From contig PDOX01000035.1 in assembly GCA_002746475.1 (NCBI GenBank), positions 1 to 6,490 of the forward strand: a DNA stretch of 6,490 nt, written 5' to 3'. Positions 1 to 6,490 of this stretch are shown here, in pieces. Both the position numbers and the translations under genes were made by a program. This DNA is from a candidate division SR1 bacterium (GTDB taxonomy: Bacteria > Patescibacteriota > Gracilibacteria > Absconditabacterales > Absconditicoccaceae). The notes beneath the pieces are model-generated. The model saw only the letters and a list, made by a program, of their open reading frames with translations, made no database searches and was not told the origin of the DNA. Positions within the stretch are counted from its first letter, which is position 1. Each line of letters opens with the position of its first letter.

Positions 1-58
1 CCCTCTTTCTCAAGAGGGGGAACGAAGTGAAAAATATCCCCCTTGAGAAAGGGGGATG
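1..58. repeat. Paired G/C-rich hairpin repeat
   Basis: Two short hairpins stand out from the AT-rich background. The first pairs CCCTCTT (1-7) with AAGAGGG (12-18). The second pairs CCCCCTT (38-44) with AAGGGGG (49-55). The segment 1-20 is also nearly the reverse complement of 38-55, so the whole block is an inverted pair separated by about 17 bases. It belongs to the same loose family as the hairpins at 868-887, 4038-4075 and 5374-5421. The function is unknown; transcription termination or a dispersed palindromic element is possible. It may extend left of the window. Confidence 0.7.
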
Positions 59-88
59 TCATCCTGAGGGTATGCGAAGGAGGACAGG
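59..88. repeat. Short imperfect inverted repeat (GTCATCCT type)
   Basis: The stretch starts GTCATCCTGAG and ends GAAGGAGGAC, so its arms GTC-TCCT and AGGA-GAC pair around a short centre. The first 11 bases equal the left end of the 69-bp repeat found at 3910-3977 and, inverted, at 920-988 (10 of 11 there). It is probably a shortened relative of that element. It sits downstream of the minus-strand gene that ends at 126 and could act as part of a terminator. Confidence 0.5.
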
Positions 89-125
89 GGGATTTGTTTT
101 ACTGAGAGGAAACTAGATTAAAAAA

Positions 126-512
126 TTACCACCTCGCAAGTTGTTTTTTCCTCTGTTCTATTTGCTCCGACAAATGTTGTTTCACCTCATCAATATGGTT
201 TAATATCTCTTCGTTGCTATATCTAATAAGCATAAGTCACTTATTTTTTAGTTTATCAGTTCTTTGTAAGTCGTAAATTTCTTTTCAATCATGACTATCT
301 CCATCTATTTCTATCACTAATAACAGTTTTGAACAATAAAAATCTACAATAAAACTATCAATCATTTTTTGTCTAAGAAACCTATATCAAGTTTTATCTC
401 TACATAATATCTCTTTTCGTATTTTCTGTTCTGCTATAGTTGGGTTTCTTCTATTATATCTTGCTCGATCTAAATTCGATCTATTATATTGAATATAATT
501 TTGTTCTTCCAT
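126..512 (-). CDS. DUF559 / Vsr-like endonuclease-fold protein
   Basis: This 128-residue protein is readable only when TGA is decoded as glycine (in-frame TGA at 387-389, 285-287 and 237-239, giving Gly42, Gly76 and Gly92). The reading frame starts at ATG 510-512 and ends at TAA 126-128. It matches the DUF559 pattern throughout: RYNRRNPTIAEQKIRKEIL near residues 18-35, GYRFLRQKMIDSFIVDFYC at 42-60, the acidic strand LLLVIEIDGDSH at 63-74, and YDLQRTDKLKNKGLMLIRYS at 80-99. The family is related to very-short-patch-repair endonucleases and has a PD-(D/E)XK-like fold; D57, E68, D70 and H74 are the likely active-site region. Cellular role and substrate are not established for the family. Members are often exchanged horizontally. 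The C-terminus is a short charged tail. Family assignment is confident; nuclease activity is inferred. Confidence 0.88.
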
Positions 513-521
513 TATTCATTT

Positions 522-555
522 TTTTTCTATTTATAAATTTTTCTATTTATAAATT
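522..555. repeat. 16-bp tandem repeat, two copies
   Basis: TTTTTCTATTTATAAA occurs twice head to tail (522-537 and 538-553), followed by two further matching bases. It lies 10 bases upstream of the minus-strand start at 512, so on that strand it provides TTTATAAATAG twice, which could serve as duplicated -10-like promoter boxes. The low complexity of the region also allows chance slippage. Confidence 0.7.
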
Positions 556-624
556 GAACTTCTATGTTAATATTTGGAGTAAGTTTTTTTAATTTTTTCT
601 CTGAATATGTTGTAAAAATAAACA

Positions 625-924
625 TTATATTTTTATTCCATATCACGAAGATAAAGAAGTTTCGTATTTTTTGACAAGTTCTTGTTTGTTTTGTTCCATC
701 TCTTTATTTTCTACATATTCTCAATATACTTCATTCCAAAAATCTTTATCTATTGAAATTACAAATTCATTAGCATATTGTTTGAGTAAGGAATTTTTTT
801 TGATCTTTATTTTCCAAGTAAATCTTCTTTTATTTTTACTCCACCGTCCTTCGACAAGCTCAGGACACCTCCCCTTGTCAGGGGAGGATTGAGGGGGGTA
901 TGCAAAGGATAATTTTACTGTCAT
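625..924 (-). pseudogene. Unidentified minus-strand ORF, possibly degenerate
   Basis: With TGA read as Gly (721-723 and 643-645) an open frame of 99 codons runs from ATG at 922-924 to TAA at 625-627. Its first 30 or so residues are just the translation of repeats (the PELVEGR stretch comes from the GTCCTTCGACAAGCTCAGGAC hairpin, and the ATG itself lies in the 69-bp element). From about residue 28 it becomes ordinary-looking, Lys-rich sequence with segments such as NEFVISIDKDFWNEVYG and MEQNKQELVKKYE. I do not recognise a family. A second short frame on the same strand (527-646, GTG start, TAG stop, 39 codons) overlaps its end. This looks like the 3' remains of a gene whose front was lost or displaced by repeats, but a non-coding origin cannot be excluded. 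Apart from this, the 482-base stretch 513-994 holds only the repeats listed separately. Confidence 0.3.
846..887. repeat. Two adjacent hairpins, dispersed repeat
   Basis: GTCCT (846-850) pairs with AGGAC (862-866) around TTCGACAAGCTC. This is a form of the TCCTGAGC/GTCGAAGGA palindrome seen in intergenic DNA of many bacteria. It is followed by the perfect 7-bp stem CCTCCCC (868-874) and GGGGAGG (881-887) with loop TTGTCA. The adjoining G-run to about 905 (GAGGGGGGTATGCAAAGG) resembles the right end of the other G-rich elements here. It is locally much richer in G+C than the flanks. Confidence 0.65.
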
Positions 925-988
925 TCAGAGGCGAAGCTGAAGAATCTATTTGTTGTATACTGAATCCTTCATGTTCATTCAGGATGAC
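920..988 (-). repeat. 69-bp palindromic repeat, copy B (inverted)
   Basis: Read on the minus strand this begins GTCATCCTGA, continues through GAAGGATT, then ACAACAAATAGATTCTTC, and ends TCTGAATGAC. It matches the copy at 3910-3977 along its length with only a few differences and small gaps. Its two ends are imperfect inverted repeats of each other, so the transcript could fold into one long hairpin. It begins 7 bases after the stop codon of the DHH phosphoesterase gene (995-1996, minus strand), so a terminator or mRNA 3'-end stabilising role is plausible. Confidence 0.85.
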
Positions 989-994
989 AACCTT

Positions 995-1996
995 TTACTT
1001 TAATTTCTCTAAAACCTCTTCTATTTTTTCTTCATATTTTTTTACCTTTCAAATTTTTACAGAAAATCCTGCTGCATTTTTGTGTCCACCCCCTCACATC
1101 CTATCTGCAATCGCACCAACATTCAAATCTCAACGCGATCTCATAGAAAACTTTAATTTTCCGTCAATATACCTCACTGTCATAGTAATCCCATCAAATT
1201 TTACTGTTTGCAAAATATTTAATCCTAAGGTTGCTCTTTCCATATCGATAGCAAACCTTTCTAAATCTTCTGCACAGTAATGGGTATACATGATTTTTAG
1301 TCCATCATGAGTATAGACCTTCATCTTATCAATCAACCATGCTGCAAATTTCACTTCTGCAAGTTTTCTCCCTTGCATATATTCGTTGACAATGAGGTTT
1401 CTATCTGCTCCTAATGCTACCAAATTTCATGCAATACGAAAAGAATTTTCAGCAGATGCTCCATATTTAAACCCTCACGTATCTGTATATACTCCTAACA
1501 ATAGACATGTTGCACTCTCTGTATCAAAATATTGTGAAAATTTGGGAGAAAATAAATCATAAATCAATTCACAAGTACTCGCATACCAATGACATTGTAC
1601 AATATGTTCAGTATTGAGAACAAAAGGGGTACTTCATGCAATATGATGGTCAATAACAAGGGTTTTATCATAATATTTTCTTGAAAAATATTCAGGATTA
1701 TCAAAATAATTTTTCCCTAACCTATCAAAGGTAGAACAATCTAAAATAATCAACAAATCATAGTCAGTATAATCAAATGTAGTTTTTATAGCTTCATATC
1801 ATGGCAAAAAATTATACACATCAGACACATCAGGCAAAAATACCTCAACGTGTTTCCCCATATTTTTCAAAATTTTTTGTAATCCTAATGTTGAACCATA
1901 GGCATCCCCGTCAGGATTTTGATGTGCAAAAATTGCAATCCTTTGAGCATTTTTGATTAATGTCTGTTGCTGGTTTGTCAATACTACAGTATCCAT
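995..1996 (-). CDS. DHH/DHHA1 family phosphoesterase (NrnA-like)
   Basis: This predicted cytoplasmic phosphoesterase of 333 residues runs from ATG (1994-1996) to TAA (995-997). Seven in-frame TGA codons (1799, 1634, 1475, 1427, 1130, 1094, 1049) must be read as Gly. The N-terminal DHH domain carries FAHQNPDGDAYGS (23-35, metal ligands H25, D29, D31), IILDCS (D86), VIDHH (D116-H118) and TDTGG (D172). The C-terminal DHHA1 domain ends with DRMGGGGHKNAAGF (298-311), the substrate-binding signature, in which the first Gly of the run is TGA. The family removes nucleotides from very short RNA or DNA and, in NrnA, dephosphorylates pAp; related members hydrolyse cyclic dinucleotides. All metal-binding motifs are present, so the enzyme should be active; the exact substrate is not shown by sequence. 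Length is typical of NrnA (about 310-340 residues). It is divergent from rnpA. Confidence 0.95.
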
Positions 1997-2001
1997 AAAA
2001 A

Positions 2002-2010
2002 AATATAATA
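2002..2010 (-). promoter_or_regulatory. Putative -10 box of the DHH phosphoesterase gene
   Basis: On the minus strand ATTATATTATATT lies 5-8 bases before the ATG at 1994-1996, offering TATTAT or TATATT as a -10 element. A TTGTTA further upstream is a possible weak -35. Transcription starting downstream of this box would begin at or very near the start codon, implying a leaderless or near-leaderless mRNA. There is no Shine-Dalgarno sequence. AT-richness makes chance matches easy. Confidence 0.35.
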
Positions 2011-2114
2011 TAATGTAAAAATAGATAACAAATTACAGTATTTTCCCTTTGAAAAATTTAATGATTTTTATATACTGAGAATATATATTAAAAATATATA
2101 CTAAGAAATACTAT

Positions 2115-2120
2115 TATAAT
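2115..2120 (+). promoter_or_regulatory. Putative -10 box upstream of rnpA
   Basis: A perfect TATAAT ends 16 bases before the rnpA ATG (2137). No TTGACA-like -35 is clear at the expected spacing. Upstream lies a direct repeat, ATATACTGAGAATA (2070-2083) and ATATACTAAGAAATA (2096-2110), which might bind a regulator or be chance in AT-rich DNA. The leader would be only about 10 bases and contains no Shine-Dalgarno motif. Confidence 0.4.
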
Positions 2121-2136
2121 TGCAATAAAAAAAACA

Positions 2137-2640
2137 ATGTTCCAGCAAAGATTTAGACTCAAGACCAAAGATGTCAGATTCCTTACAAGAAAAGGAATGA
2201 GATGGTATGGAAGATATTTTTCTTTCCATGCTTTTCCCCAATATCCCAATATTCCTCACAATCAGATTTCTTGTCATATCAGTATCAAATACGACAAAAG
2301 AGCAGTTCATAGAAATAATCTCAAAAAAAGTATTCTTAATTATATTCAAGAAAATAATTATATTGCCAAACAACGAAAGACAGTAAATAATGCGAAATAT
2401 TATAAAGTATTTATCTGATTAAATAAACAAAATATTGAAAACTTCAAAGAATATCTCAAACCTCTTGATAAAACCCAGCAGAGAATGACCGTCAGGAAAA
2501 TGCTAGACCAACATTTCAGAGAACGAGAAAAAAAACTTTTATCATATAATCAAAGAAATCCTCATGAAAGAGAAAAAAGACAACATAAAAATTACAAAAA
2601 CTACAAAAACAACAGCCAATACAAAAACAAGCACTACTAA
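2137..2640 (+). CDS. rnpA: Ribonuclease P protein component
   Basis: RnpA binds the catalytic RNase P RNA and helps it remove 5' leaders from pre-tRNAs. The 167-residue frame (ATG 2137, TAA 2638-2640) has one TGA at 2416-2418, read as Gly94. The start RFRLKTKDVRFLTRKGMRW (5-23) matches the family opening. The diagnostic basic helix is KRAVHRNNLKKSI (54-66), equivalent to the RNase P signature (K-x-A-V-x-R-N-x-x-K-R). YYKVFIGLNK (88-97) forms the last strand of the conserved core. Typical RnpA has about 110-130 residues; the extra 50 or so here form a Lys/Arg/Asn/Tyr-rich tail ending in a NYKNYKNN-type low-complexity stretch. The usual neighbour rpmH is not in the window. The 3' end overlaps the next gene by 77 bp. 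There is no Shine-Dalgarno. Confidence 0.9.
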
Positions 2641-3871
2641 AATATTCAAAGAAAAAATTAAGTCAGGGGTTGAACGATTTTTTACTCCACCAAATGTAGA
2701 AGATATTGAAACTCAACTTTCAGCACTCAAAGAAGAAAAAATTGAATCCTCAGGAAAGATTTATTTTTCTACAAAAAATATTGCAATATTTTGGCTTATG
2801 GGAATGCTTTTTGCATTAATTGGATATTATTTATTTAATTTTCTCAATACATTATTTATTATTATAGGGGCATATATCATTTCAATTATCATGGAATGAA
2901 TAATCAATTATTTCCAAAAAAAACACTGCAATAGAATACTAGCCATATGAATAAGTTATACAATAATGGTTGTCATAACATTTTTGTGTATTATATTTAT
3001 ATCCCCTCTTATTATCGATAAAATAACATGAATTATTACATTTGTATGACAAAAACTTAGCTATCTCCAAAATTTATTTTCTACCACCCCAATACCAATC
3101 ATCGTGACAGAACAAACGCGAATTCCAGAAATAGTAAAATCAGAAATAGTATCCTCTTTGCAAAATTCAAGTTCAGAATTGAATACCATCATCCAAAATT
3201 GAGTTGTAAATATGATCGCGAGTATCACAAATTCAATAGGAATTTTCAGTAATATTGCACTAAAAACATTTAATACTATTTCAGGATTTTTAGTAAAATT
3301 ATTGATGTTAACATTTCTATCTGTATTGTTTTCAGTGGAAAAAGATATTATTACCAGTTTCCTTGTTGCATTATTCCCAAAATATAAACAACAAAAAATC
3401 GAACTTCAAATACAGAGAATGTATAAATATCTTGCATTTTGGTTTAAATATAGGCTTGCACTCAGTATTTTTATGTTTACAGGGATTTATGTGTGTTTTT
3501 GGATTTTATATCTGTTTGGTATCGATATTTCACATAAATTTTCTCTTGCATTATCGTTAGGTATCCTTGATGTTATTCCTTATATTGGACCGATAATAGC
3601 AGGAGGATTAATGTTTTTTTCAGCTATTATGGAACATTGATTTTGGATTGCAATGCTTTTACCTATCTTTGTGACGATAGTAAATACCACAGAAAATACT
3701 GTAGTTGTCCCGTATATCATGAATAAATCCATGGGGGTAAGTTTGATCCTTACCTTTGTCTGTATGTTGTTAGGATGACTGGTAATGGGATTTTTAGGAG
3801 TATTTCTTGCTATCCCTTTTGCAATGATTCTCACGTTATTCTTTCAGAAACCGCAGAGTAAAAAAGAATAG
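2564..3871 (+). CDS. AI-2E family transporter (PerM-like membrane protein)
   Basis: A 435-residue integral membrane protein runs from ATG 2564 to TAG 3869-3871 with seven TGA codons read as Gly (2897, 2948, 3029, 3047, 3200, 3638, 3776). A basic Thr/Lys-rich N-terminal tail (1-40) precedes a hydrophobic pair near 72-111, another segment near 125-147, a soluble stretch to about 215, and several more membrane segments to the end. LDVIPYIGPIIAGG (335-348) is the family hallmark, and NTTENTVVVPYIMNKSMGVS followed by GGLVMGFLGVFLAIPF matches the conserved C-terminal region. Family members have been linked to autoinducer-2 export and to Na+/H+ antiport, but most are uncharacterised, so no substrate should be assumed. 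The start lies inside rnpA in another frame. No ATG, GTG or TTG in frame follows until well into the first membrane segment, which supports this start and translational coupling with rnpA. Confidence 0.9.
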
Positions 3872-3909
3872 AAAATAGGGATCGGAGTGAAGATTTTGAG
3901 GGGATATCC

Positions 3910-3977
3910 GTCATCCTGAGGCTTTGCCGAAGGATCGATTATACAGCAAATAGATTCTTCGCTTCGCTCTGAATGAC
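3910..3977 (+). repeat. 69-bp palindromic repeat, copy A
   Basis: This copy starts GTCATCCTGAGG, continues GAAGGATCGATT and CAGCAAATAGATTCTTC, and ends TCTGAATGAC. The left half (GTCATCCTGAG..GAAGGATC) is an imperfect reverse complement of the right half (GATTCTTCG..CTGAATGAC), so the element can fold on itself. It is the inverted counterpart of 920-988. It lies 38 bases after the AI-2E gene stop, in the 237-base gap before murF, and could end transcription of the rnpA transcript. Confidence 0.85.
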
Positions 3978-4037
3978 AGAAAATCTACTGTGAATCTTGC
4001 TACCAAAAAGAAATCTATGGATAAAAAAACAAATAAG

Positions 4038-4075
4038 CCTCTCCTGTTAGGAGAGGTCCCTGCAAAGCAGGGGGA
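4038..4075. repeat. Double hairpin repeat upstream of murF
   Basis: Two perfect stems follow each other: CCTCTCC (4038-4044) with GGAGAGG (4050-4056), loop TGTTA, then CCCTGC (4058-4063) with GCAGGG (4067-4072), loop AAA. The arrangement, a G/C-rich stem followed by a shorter stem and a G-run, is the same as in the element inside murF at 5374-5421. It ends about 34 bases before the murF start. Confidence 0.7.
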
Positions 4076-4091
4076 AAGGTAAAATTTACAA

Positions 4092-4097
4092 TATAAT
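4092..4097 (+). promoter_or_regulatory. Putative -10 box of murF
   Basis: TATAAT ends 11 bases before the ATG at 4109, so initiation would leave a leader of only a few bases. No -35 is recognisable; the expected position falls in the G-run of the preceding hairpin repeat. There is no Shine-Dalgarno motif before the ATG. Confidence 0.4.
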
Positions 4098-4108
4098 AAC
4101 TAATCCCT

Positions 4109-5566
4109 ATGAAACAGAAAATCTTACTCCAATACTATAAACTCCTTGCATTTTTTGCAAAAAAATATTTACAGAAACATAACCCTATTATCATTGGAAT
4201 CAATGGAAGTGTAGGGAAAACCTCATGTAGAGCGATCATTCACCAAACTCTCCAACACTATTTCCCTGACCAAAAAATCTATACGTCAAGTAAAAACTTT
4301 AACGGAGAATTGGGATTGCCTTTGTCCGTATTTTGCAAAGAATCACGAACCCCAAATATTTGGGAATTTATAAGAACCCTTTTCAATTTTGCCTATCAAA
4401 GCCTCTTCGCGAAAAAAAAATATGATGTTATCATCTTAGAGTATGGAATTGATAGACCCTGAGAAATGGATTTTCTCCTCAATATCGCAAAACCTGATAT
4501 TGGAGTATTTACCGCACTTGATGCGGTGCATTCTGAACAATTTGGCGACCCTAACGCTATCGCCGAGGAAGAAGTGAAAATGCCTCTCAATACCAAAGAA
4601 GTCGTATTTCTCAACAACGATGAACCCTATACCCACCAAATCATCAACTCTATAAAAATAGATAAACTGACCTATCAGACCACAGGAGCCAAACCGAATG
4701 CAAATATTACGTTTCAAAATTCTCACATCATCAACAATACAGAAAATAACAATATTGCTAATAGCTTTGAACTCACAATCTGAAAGAAAAATCACAGCAT
4801 CACAACTAACCAAATCGGGAAAATCAATCATTGATACATCGGAGTAGCCCTCGCTATCACAGAAATCCTTGCACACAAATTCCAGAAAAATAACCCCTTA
4901 CAAAAAGAAATTACGCTCAACTATACCTTACTCCCATGAAGAATGACCTTGTTTGCTGGAGTAGAGGAGAGTATTATTCTTGACTCAACGTATAACGCCT
5001 CGCCACTGAGTATGAGGAGATTGATTGACACCACCCACCAAATTAAACAAAGCTTTCTATTCAACAAAGATAATGAACAAAACAAGAATAAAAAAAATAA
5101 GCAAGTCCGACTTGCATTAGGAGATATGAGAGAATTGGGAGATTTTACTGAAAAAGAACATAGATTGCTCGCAGGATACTGCCAAGGGATCGCAGATAAA
5201 ATGTTCTTGGTAGGGGAGAGTATGAAAAATTATTTTCTTGATGAAGCAGAAAAAATCTGATGTGATATGAAGACAATACAGCATTTCAAAAACTCTAAAC
5301 TTCTCTGAAATGCAATGAAAACAGCATTAGAAAAATTATCTCTCAAAAGTAAAGAATACAATCAAGAAAATAAGTCCCCCTTAAAAAGGGGGAACCCCGC
5401 GAATGCGAGGAGGGGGATTTGAAATTCCGAAGAAGTAATCATCCTCTGCAAAGGAAGCCAAAACACCATTTTTCTCGAAGAAGCCGTAAAAATCCTCCTC
5501 AAAAACAAAGCTGATAGCAAACACCTTGTCCGCCAATCAGAATTCTGGTTGAGTAAAAAGAAATAA
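4109..5566 (+). CDS. murF: MurF-type Mur ligase
   Basis: A cytoplasmic ATP-dependent ligase, most like UDP-MurNAc-tripeptide:D-Ala-D-Ala ligase of peptidoglycan synthesis. It has 485 residues (ATG 4109, TAA 5564-5566) with seven TGA codons read as Gly (4460, 4781, 4832, 4937, 5258, 5306, 5420). The ATP-binding domain has GINGSVGKTS (30-39), KNFNGELGLPLSVF (62-75), ILEYGIDRPGE (109-119) and AVHSEQFG (139-146). The C-terminal domain has LPGRM, DSTYNASPLSM (292-302), ALGDMRELG (336-344) and VIILCKGS (443-450). TGA codes for the Gly in PGE and PGR. Oddities: the usual N-terminal substrate-binding domain of about 75-100 residues is absent and an in-frame stop at 4097-4099 rules out extension. A Glu appears to replace the carbamylated Lys (IAEEEVK). 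An Asn/Lys-rich insert lies at 319-332, and a palindromic repeat encodes residues 423-438. Another Mur-ligase-like activity is possible. Confidence 0.85.
5374..5421 (+). repeat. Palindromic repeat inserted in frame inside murF
   Basis: CCCCCTT (5376-5382) pairs with AAGGGGG (5386-5392), followed by CGC/GCG around GAAT and a closing AGGGGGATTT. The architecture matches the intergenic elements at 1-58 and 4038-4075. In the murF frame it codes for SPLKRGNPANARRGIG (residues 423-438), the last Gly being TGA at 5420-5422. The murF frame is intact on both sides, with the conserved VIILCKGS strand resuming five residues later. The inserted peptide lies in a loop of the C-terminal domain. Confidence 0.8.
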
Positions 5567-5586
5567 TTTTTTTGCTTTAATTAAAA

Positions 5587-5597
5587 TATATTATATT
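5587..5597 (+). promoter_or_regulatory. Putative -10 region of the GDPD gene
   Basis: TATATTATATT ends 4 bases before the ATG at 5602 and gives overlapping -10-like hexamers (5587-5592 and 5592-5597), with TTGCTT at 5572-5577 as a weak -35 candidate. The gap after murF is only 35 bases, so read-through from murF is an alternative. There is no Shine-Dalgarno motif. Confidence 0.3.
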
Positions 5598-5601
5598 AAA
5601 A

Positions 5602-6327
5602 ATGAAAGATCTTTGGATAACAAAAACACCAATAGCACACAGAGGATTACACTCAAATGATAGTATTTATCCAGAAAATTCATTAATAGCAATCAAAAAG
5701 GCAATAGAAAAAAATATTCCTATTGAAATAGATGTACAACTATCAAAAGATGAAGAAATTGTAGTATTCCATGACTTTGATGTATCAAGAATGTGTAATA
5801 AAAATAAAAAAGCATCAGAATTAACCTTAAAAGAATTAAAAAAATTATATTTAAAAGCATGAACAGAGAAAATTCCTACGTTAAAAGAAGTTTTTGATAT
5901 AGTATGCGGAAAAATTCCAATACTCATTGAAATAAAAAATTTTTGATTTCCTGGAAAGTTAGAAAAAAGAGTAAATAATGCAATTAAAAATTATAAAGGG
6001 AAAATTGCAATACAATCTTTTAATCCATTTACAATACTACGATTTAAAAAAAATAATCCAAATATCTTAAGAGGGCAATTAAGTTCTAGTTTCAAAGGGA
6101 TAACAATACCTTTCTTCATAAAATATATATTAAAAAATATGTTTCTGAATATCTTCACAAAACCAGATTTTCTTGCAGTAGACCTATCATTATTAGAAGA
6201 TCTTAAATTTAGAAAAAGATATAAAAATAAGACAATAATTTTATGATGGACAATAGATAATTATGAAAAACAGTCAAAAGTAAAAGAATTATGTGACAAT
6301 TATATTTTTGAATTAATTGATATATAA
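5602..6327 (+). CDS. Glycerophosphodiester phosphodiesterase family protein
   Basis: A 241-residue GDPD-family protein runs from ATG 5602 to TAA 6325-6327 with TGA at 5860, 5944 and 6244 read as Gly. The family hydrolyses glycerophosphodiesters from phospholipid breakdown to glycerol-3-phosphate and an alcohol. The TIM-barrel active site is visible: IAHRG (11-15, H13 and R14), YPENSLIAIKKAI (23-35), IEIDVQLSKDEEIVVFHD (41-58, with E42, D44 and H57 as metal and catalytic residues), ILIEIK (about 107-112), IAIQSFNP, and GWTIDN (215-220) at the C-terminal strand. The length is close to that of compact bacterial members (about 230-250). No signal peptide or N-terminal membrane segment is seen, suggesting a cytoplasmic enzyme. 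Codon choice is distinctly more A/T-rich (ATA, TTA, AGA) than in murF just upstream. Confidence 0.92.
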
Positions 6328-6436
6328 TACATCAAAAAAATCCAATACTTTCTCTTGCAATAGAAATCAGAATTAATATACTGAATTGGAAAAAAAAATC
6401 TAAATTTTTTAATTATCTAAAATTATTGAAAAAAAA

Positions 6437-6490
6437 TGCCAAGAAGAACATTAGAAAACAGAACAATAGAAGTAATTCTACTTGAATCTG
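6437..6490 (+). CDS. Possible start of an unidentified gene (partial)
   Basis: An ATG at 6437-6439 opens a frame of 18 codons that runs off the window (MPRRTLENRTIEVILLES). It follows a 109-base AT-rich gap after the GDPD stop, in which I see no gene or hairpin, only poly-A stretches. No Shine-Dalgarno is present, as for the other genes here. The fragment is too short to identify, and chance is possible. Confidence 0.35.

Follow-up and report, generated by a model that had tools for sequence, protein, structure and literature searches.

A palindromic repeat in frame in murF of a candidate division SR1 bacterium and its probable kinship with repeats that bracket genes of the predicted nuclease DUF559

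In the repetitive extragenic palindromic (REP) sequences and bacterial interspersed mosaic elements (BIMEs) with their REP-associated tyrosine transposases (RAYTs), short G/C palindromes are scattered through the genome, and a gene is bracketed by palindromes. As far as the cited portions of the sources go, Rickettsia palindromic elements (RPEs) measure about 150 bp and fall into ten families in Rickettsia (PMC10969869), and I-Bth0305I is an example of the EDxHD homing endonucleases (PMC3943268). Here we analyze a palindromic repeat that lies in frame within murF of a candidate division SR1 bacterium, on a stretch of 6,490 nt (contig PDOX01000035.1, positions 1 to 6,490; hereafter the window). 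We conclude that this insert is probably a solo member of a repeat family with palindromic ends, which also brackets DUF559 genes, and that the predicted nuclease encoded by these genes is probably what carries the family into conserved genes.

The window corresponds to contig C48 of a metagenome-assembled genome (MAG) of 561 kb, 102 contigs and 66% completeness (G000, the source genome), in whose open reading frames (ORFs) UGA is read through as in code 25; UGA is predicted to encode glycine in this bacterium. The host gene and its insert comprise the following features.

4109-5566, plus strand: murF (UDP-MurNAc-tripeptide--D-Ala-D-Ala ligase), host of the insert, identified by ORF, NCBIfam, Pfam and fold matches.
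5371-5421, plus strand: solo palindromic unit of 51 nt or 17 codons, in frame in murF, supported by its absence in relatives, its termini and an alignment score.
5375-5393, unstranded: hairpin 1, TCCCCCTT AAA AAGGGGGA, from pattern search and fold.
5396-5410, unstranded: hairpin 2, the inner and variable module, from the minimum-energy fold.
5420-5422, plus strand: in-frame TGA (Gly438), with TG as the end of the unit and A from the host, from ORF translation and sequence.

The murF gene is a single code-25 ORF from 4109 to 5563, followed by a stop. Its product matches TIGR01143 of NCBIfam (E 6.5e-44, 150.5 bits, under the curated cut-off of 288.6) and contains the Pfam domain Mur_ligase_M, and the top PDB matches of its predicted model are MurF structures (4qf5, 3zl8, and others). 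The mean predicted local distance difference test score (pLDDT) of this model is 85, with values below 50 for residues 432-439, which are placed between helix 396-420 and strand 443-448. The unit at 5371-5421 reads TAAG-TCCCCCTT-AAA-AAGGGGGA-ACCCCGCGAATGCGAGGAGGGGGATTTG, and its ends, (T)AAGTCCCC...GGGGATTTG, are similar to the CAAATC..CCC...GGATTTG ends of other copies. Aligned with a unit in mnmA of another genome of the same bacterial family (G034), it scored 18.5, the best of 500 shuffles reaching 10.5. A murF match was found in 43 of the 49 genomes of this family, and the insert stretch is absent from all 29 murF sequences that were fetched from other genomes and aligned, the comparison being one within the family. 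A weak point is that the murF copy, taken by itself, folds as DNA only modestly better than shuffles (z -1.95; 8 of 200 equally good).

The insert in murF is confirmed and preserves the frame, and the original prediction made on this DNA, which had claimed such a palindromic repeat, is borne out by the one open code-25 ORF and by the relatives without the stretch. Its boundaries have to be corrected, however, as the unit had been placed at 5374-5421 with 16 added codons; the left end was missed, and the actual unit spans 5371/5372-5421 and adds 17. The repeat had also been credited with a TGA of its own, of which the in-frame TGA stands but not the ownership, as the codon is shared with the host.

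A search of the source genome with the pattern CCCCCTTNNNNAGGGGGA (up to 2 mismatches) gave 29 forward matches at 24 distinct places, compared with one forward match of the reversed control, and a second palindrome pattern gave 60 forward matches with a control of 1. The place-by-place census rests on the 24 places of the first pattern, at each of which the coding ORF was picked by eye, and gene-destroying copies escape recognition in this procedure. Sixteen places are in frame inside 14 ORFs, and eight are outside any recognisable gene. Most copies are thus genic, contrary to the initial description of the element as being of a kind found between genes. The expectation of a palindrome that, like an RPE, inserts into coding genes with the frame kept is supported. 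Neither of the outcomes that had been named as speaking against the insert, a conserved murF peptide or a lack of other copies, turned up within the family. A Pfam domain was found in 12 of the 14 host ORFs, namely MurF, an Elp3-like radical SAM protein, a YidD ORF (with an Fmt part seen by eye), ABC-F, TrwB-like, trypsin-like, MnmA (two places), TruD, TPR, ABC transporter, DNA methylase-like, and MutS; the ORFs on contigs C52 (two places) and C88 had no Pfam family. The YidD ORF also has a serine hydrolase match beside its palindromes (L029:253-1518).

A link of these palindromes with DUF559 was missed by the original prediction, even though one DUF559 gene lies in the same window, as can be seen from the remaining features.

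1-97, unstranded: palindromic repeats adjoining the DUF559 gene, with matches at 29-56 (75%) and 74-96 (78%) to the two modules of the murF unit.
126-512, minus strand: free-standing DUF559 (PF04480) gene for a Vsr-like predicted nuclease (PF04480 with 82.5 bits at 159-473), among the free-standing copies in the DUF559 tree.
841-899, unstranded: another palindromic repeat, flanking the DUF559 gene on its opposite side at more than 300 bp from its domain, CCTCCCCTTGTCAGGGGAGG.
4039-4055, unstranded: intergenic palindrome CTCTCCTGTTAGGAGAG upstream of murF.

Other repeat types occupy 841-1005 and 3905-3980 of the window (TCCTTCGACAAGCTCAGGAC; GTCATTCAGAGGCGAAGC and kin), and 939-970 and 3929-3960 are inverted copies of each other (88%).

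The source genome has three PF04480 matches (the free-standing gene of the window, one in frame in mnmA, and one in tgt), and a G/C hairpin lies within 300 bp of all three. Hairpins were defined by perfect 8-bp arms with a G+C content of at least 60% and a loop of 3-9, and were counted when at most 300 bp away; this limit was chosen after seeing the hairpin positions from the first use of the rule, and both were then kept unchanged for the samples across phyla and elsewhere in the phylum. DUF559 was detected by PF04480 in 28 of the 49 family genomes, with 61 rows that correspond to 60 loci, as two rows represent one gene. A hairpin was within 300 bp in 31 of these 60 loci (on both sides in 7) versus 1 of 29 murF loci, and hairpin density was 0.93/kb in or near the DUF559 domain, 0.12/kb further out, and 0.017/kb at murF loci. 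Across phyla, 58 of 80 DUF559 loci had such a hairpin (30 on both sides; 1.79 versus 0.27/kb), the sample being the best 80 of 567, among which at least three (L135, L138, L165) duplicate family loci. Elsewhere in the phylum, the 30 best-scoring loci, one per genome, gave 29 with a hairpin (22 on both sides; 2.45 versus 0.19/kb). Over the 49 genomes, DUF559 count and palindrome count are correlated with rho 0.69, and DUF559 is present in 18 of 20 genomes with at least four palindromes versus 10 of the 29 others. Outside the phylum, inverted repeats of 35 nt (100% and 91%) flank two cyanobacterial DUF559 genes; one cyanobacterial repeat (L142) begins TAAGTCCCCCTT, like the murF unit. The DUF559 gene of one further MAG outside the phylum is flanked by 52-nt direct repeats (98%).

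Of the 60 family loci, 16 have the DUF559 domain embedded in frame in another protein, and these nuclease stretches have no start or stop of their own. Hosts are MnmA (3), LeuRS (3), LepA (2, both in G008), RimO (2), Tgt, MurC, Elp3-like, YidD-Fmt, PrmC, and SufB (by eye). Pfam families of the host protein were found in 15 of these 16: 11 loci have them on either side of the nuclease, and 4 (L082, L092, L093, L112) have them on one side, with the other assigned by eye; the SufB host of L109, at a contig end, was recognized by eye only, with no Pfam host family. L103, whose large ORF matches DUF559 only in part and has no further family, was not counted as an insert. The in-frame inserts, which are longer relatives of the murF unit in housekeeping genes, are built of a left palindrome, the DUF559 domain, and a right palindrome. 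In 14 aligned in-frame copies, E54, D56, G57, and H60 (ExDGxxH) are invariant, and the nearest solved structures to the profile of the in-frame domains (A1) are 3hrl ('endonuclease-like protein', E 2.4e-24) and 3r3p ('mobile intron protein', E 4.7e-8), the latter of which we take to be I-Bth0305I, an EDxHD homing endonuclease. In the predicted MnmA model of G046, the nuclease forms a separate domain (about 147-251) that is joined by the low-confidence stretches 131-145 and 256-263, and the host part still matches MnmA 2det (TM 0.89 by target). An in-frame rate is not claimed, and a comparison of in-frame fractions (17 of 60 versus 3 of 76) was not used, because one of the 17 (tgt of the source genome) is frameshifted and the standard-code (table 11) cases described below were chosen for long open frames.

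Two forms of splicing were considered for these loci and rejected. An intein is disfavored, as a Pfam splicing-domain family was found in none of the 16 in-frame loci, and a self-splicing intron likewise, with no such Pfam family in the 16 loci and no Rfam intron in the window and 10 of the 16. As side aspects, the LeuRS ORF of G007 (L079) holds NUDIX plus DUF559, the LeuRS of G020 (L092) has abhydrolase and nucleotidyltransferase-like matches with DUF559, and the two LepA ORFs of G008 with DUF559 (L078, L105) are on different contigs with differing downstream sequence, representing strain variants or a duplication.

Signs of mobility come from the DUF559 tree, which was built without the partial family loci L098, L103, L130, and L133 and with 25 of the 80 outside loci. 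The nearest kin of in-frame copies reside in different genes, as with Fmt of G006 and LepA of G008 (support 100/99), Elp3 of G040 and SufB of G025 (100/99), RimO of G036 and MurC of G035 (100/89), and LeuRS of G007 and RimO of G045 (100/97); the MnmA copies of the source genome and G048 pair together (99/84). According to local matches, the DNA shared by Fmt/LepA (79%) and LeuRS/RimO (82%) runs from palindrome to palindrome and ends at or just past them. The embedded group of the tree also includes the tgt copy of the source genome (L134, G000:C24:5500-7837; at a contig end), a truncated, frameshifted DUF559 at approximately the site of an intact in-frame copy in G025, which likely represents a decay stage.

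The mnmA gene offers different states of one and the same place. By motif search, the segment between ATGHYARI and KDQSYF was read in 21 of 30 loci: DUF559 is present in G000, G046, and G048, while G034, G038, and G040 have palindromes alone; six loci have a spacer of 16-20 residues, and nine have 33-43 unclassified residues. G045 and G047, which belong to the same genus as G046, carry the short spacer. Across different genera, this segment is empty, palindrome-only or nuclease-bearing. The palindrome-only DNA has CAAAT...ATTTG ends and holds a 51-nt unit like that of murF. By eye, fmt has palindromes in the source genome where G006 carries the nuclease. The mnmA genes of G036 (L238) and G032 (L232) have 43-residue spacers that resemble yet other repeat peptides.

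As to how such a distribution could arise, the nuclease may recognize or cut the palindromes or the target, and repair would then copy the element, while solo units could be what remains once the nuclease is lost, or could be mobilized in trans. Encoded by the palindromes, Pro/Gly-rich peptides could serve as flexible linkers, and the host protein would therefore fold around the insert, making splicing unneeded. The murF unit is likely the reduced form of such a mobile element, which invades conserved genes and which the host tolerates as additional protein instead of removing it by splicing. In our judgment it is evenly poised whether these inserts form a widespread bacterial class of mobile elements without splicing, consisting of a Vsr-like nuclease domain with no start or stop of its own and with palindromes as Pro/Gly-rich linkers, which invades conserved genes and persists there in frame as an extra domain, and of which the murF insert and many G/C-rich bacterial palindromes would be the stripped-down copies.

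Several observations weigh against a nuclease-driven spread. We infer mobilization by DUF559 from sequence comparison. Under the strict hairpin rule, 29 of the 60 family DUF559 loci have no hairpin, and at the DUF559 gene of the window a hairpin lies nearby on just one of the two sides. The in-frame nuclease copies belong to other subgroups of the tree than this free-standing gene, and no target duplication was evident by eye in the Fmt/LepA and LeuRS/RimO comparisons. No DUF559 was found in G041 (13 palindrome matches, 93% complete; Y1_Tnp also none) or in G022 (5 palindrome matches, 65% complete; one Y1_Tnp present). The transposase family Y1_Tnp occurs in 15 of the 49 family genomes and also correlates with palindrome number, but with rho 0.36 more weakly than DUF559. 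Finally, in the cited part of the report, a DUF559 protein of Caulobacter is a predicted mismatch-repair nuclease (PMC12907096).

The last point would fit a view in which DUF559 is a Vsr-like host repair enzyme, or a passenger that landed in palindromes by chance or recombination, with the repeats spreading otherwise, and NUDIX and hydrolase domains inside host ORFs of the family also agree with it. We nevertheless regard this as unlikely, as shared DNA ends approximately at the palindromes in unrelated genes, the in-frame copies sit in many different genes with their nearest kin again in different ones, and the link with hairpins persists across phyla. An origin of the palindromes as REP-like repeats, mobilized by a Y1 (RAYT/IS200-type) transposase with DUF559 genes as bystanders, is quite improbable: the architecture does resemble REP/BIME, and there is the weak correlation just mentioned, but Y1_Tnp (PF01797) had 0 matches in the source genome, a 66% complete MAG, and is missing from 9 of the 20 genomes with at least four palindromes, 18 of which have DUF559. 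DUF559 was also within 300 bp of hairpins in three samples, a proximity that was measured around DUF559. A Y1/RAYT transposase, not found in this incomplete genome and the weaker correlate in the family, is disfavored as the driver. Misjoined repeats in a fragmented assembly, for which the 102 contigs, the incompleteness, and the position of the tgt copy at a contig end could be cited, are a very improbable source of the pattern in view of the open frame kept at 16 genic places and of in-frame DUF559 inserts that recur in many other genomes. A functional MurF loop retained for a purpose of the host, which would be in frame and would fit the well-modelled MurF fold, can hardly be credited given its absence in all 29 relatives, the low confidence of the loop, and the related units in unrelated proteins.

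We also considered how far the reading of UGA as glycine matters for a repeat family probably spread by the DUF559 nuclease. Of the 17 in-gene palindrome clusters of the source genome, 12 have no TGA in the frame used, and in 5 (murF, the trypsin-like ORF, MnmA twice, and C88) such a TGA falls inside the cluster or on its junction; with a 35-nt right flank included, the count of clusters with TGA is 6 of 17. On average, 2.5 of the 6 frames of these clusters are open under code 11 and 3.8 under code 25. As UGA read as glycine makes more repeat frames readable, tolerance should rise. However, DUF559 is also in frame in ORFs that are open under table 11, namely those of ValRS (L180), HydF (L198), and a type ISP restriction enzyme (L207), and further hosts of this kind are Elp3-like, Sua5, riboflavin synthase, and MurD (tail by eye). 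For these hosts, the code was judged by the open ORFs. Four long-ORF loci were chosen from the 80, and ORFs merely running into a neighbor gene (L162, L168, L176, L184, L210) were left uncounted; from the elsewhere-in-phylum set, ten loci were chosen for long open frames and eight of them run against Pfam. The nuclease was internal to a host protein in four of these eight (MurD, Elp3-like, Sua5, riboflavin synthase); in three (L280, L281, L283) it was at one end of a neighbor, and L282 had no other family. Strict dependence on code 25 is rejected on account of the hosts open under table 11. The original idea that code 25 widens the set of repeats that can enter genes harmlessly therefore has a measurable basis in the TGA-bearing clusters and the additional open frames, but leaves the phenomenon unexplained, since most clusters have no TGA and hosts open under the standard code exist. 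In this sense, UGA as glycine aids tolerance of the repeat, opening about half again as many repeat frames, yet is not required, as ORFs open under the standard code host inserts too.

Among the hits listed from the open-access literature searched, we found no report of a link between DUF559 and palindromes or of a non-splicing nuclease insert in frame. Should our interpretation hold, a candidate driver enzyme would be at hand for a large class of short palindromic repeats, and selfish DNA that lives in conserved genes without intron or intein, tolerated as a loop or a tethered domain, would become testable. The inserts would then also be a natural record of where conserved proteins tolerate insertions.

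Compared with known systems, the murF unit resembles a miniature inverted-repeat transposable element in having inverted ends, (T)AAGTCCCC and GGGGATTTG, and no gene of its own, and the DUF559-bearing relatives with similar palindromic ends would be the autonomous counterparts. In contrast to REP/BIME, another enzyme family is involved, Y1_Tnp was not found in the 66% complete source genome, and the copies are mainly genic. Inteins share the in-frame insertion into conserved proteins together with a nuclease, but the 16 loci have no splicing-domain family, and the nuclease-bearing mnmA stretch between the motifs, of 151-205 residues, is mostly nuclease. The likeness to EDxHD homing endonucleases, as far as the cited account of these goes, consists in the match of the DUF559 profile to 3r3p, the inserts in conserved genes, and the existence of empty and occupied alleles; the difference is that no intron or intein family was matched here and that the insert stays in frame. 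With RPEs, as described in the cited portion of their source, the repeats share the many palindromic copies in frame within unrelated protein genes, and they are set apart from that description by the 51-nt unit with longer composites, by their occurrence in a code-25 bacterium and elsewhere, and by the tie to DUF559. On the best reading, the element resembles both a homing endonuclease element and an RPE in how it works, but is to be classed as neither.
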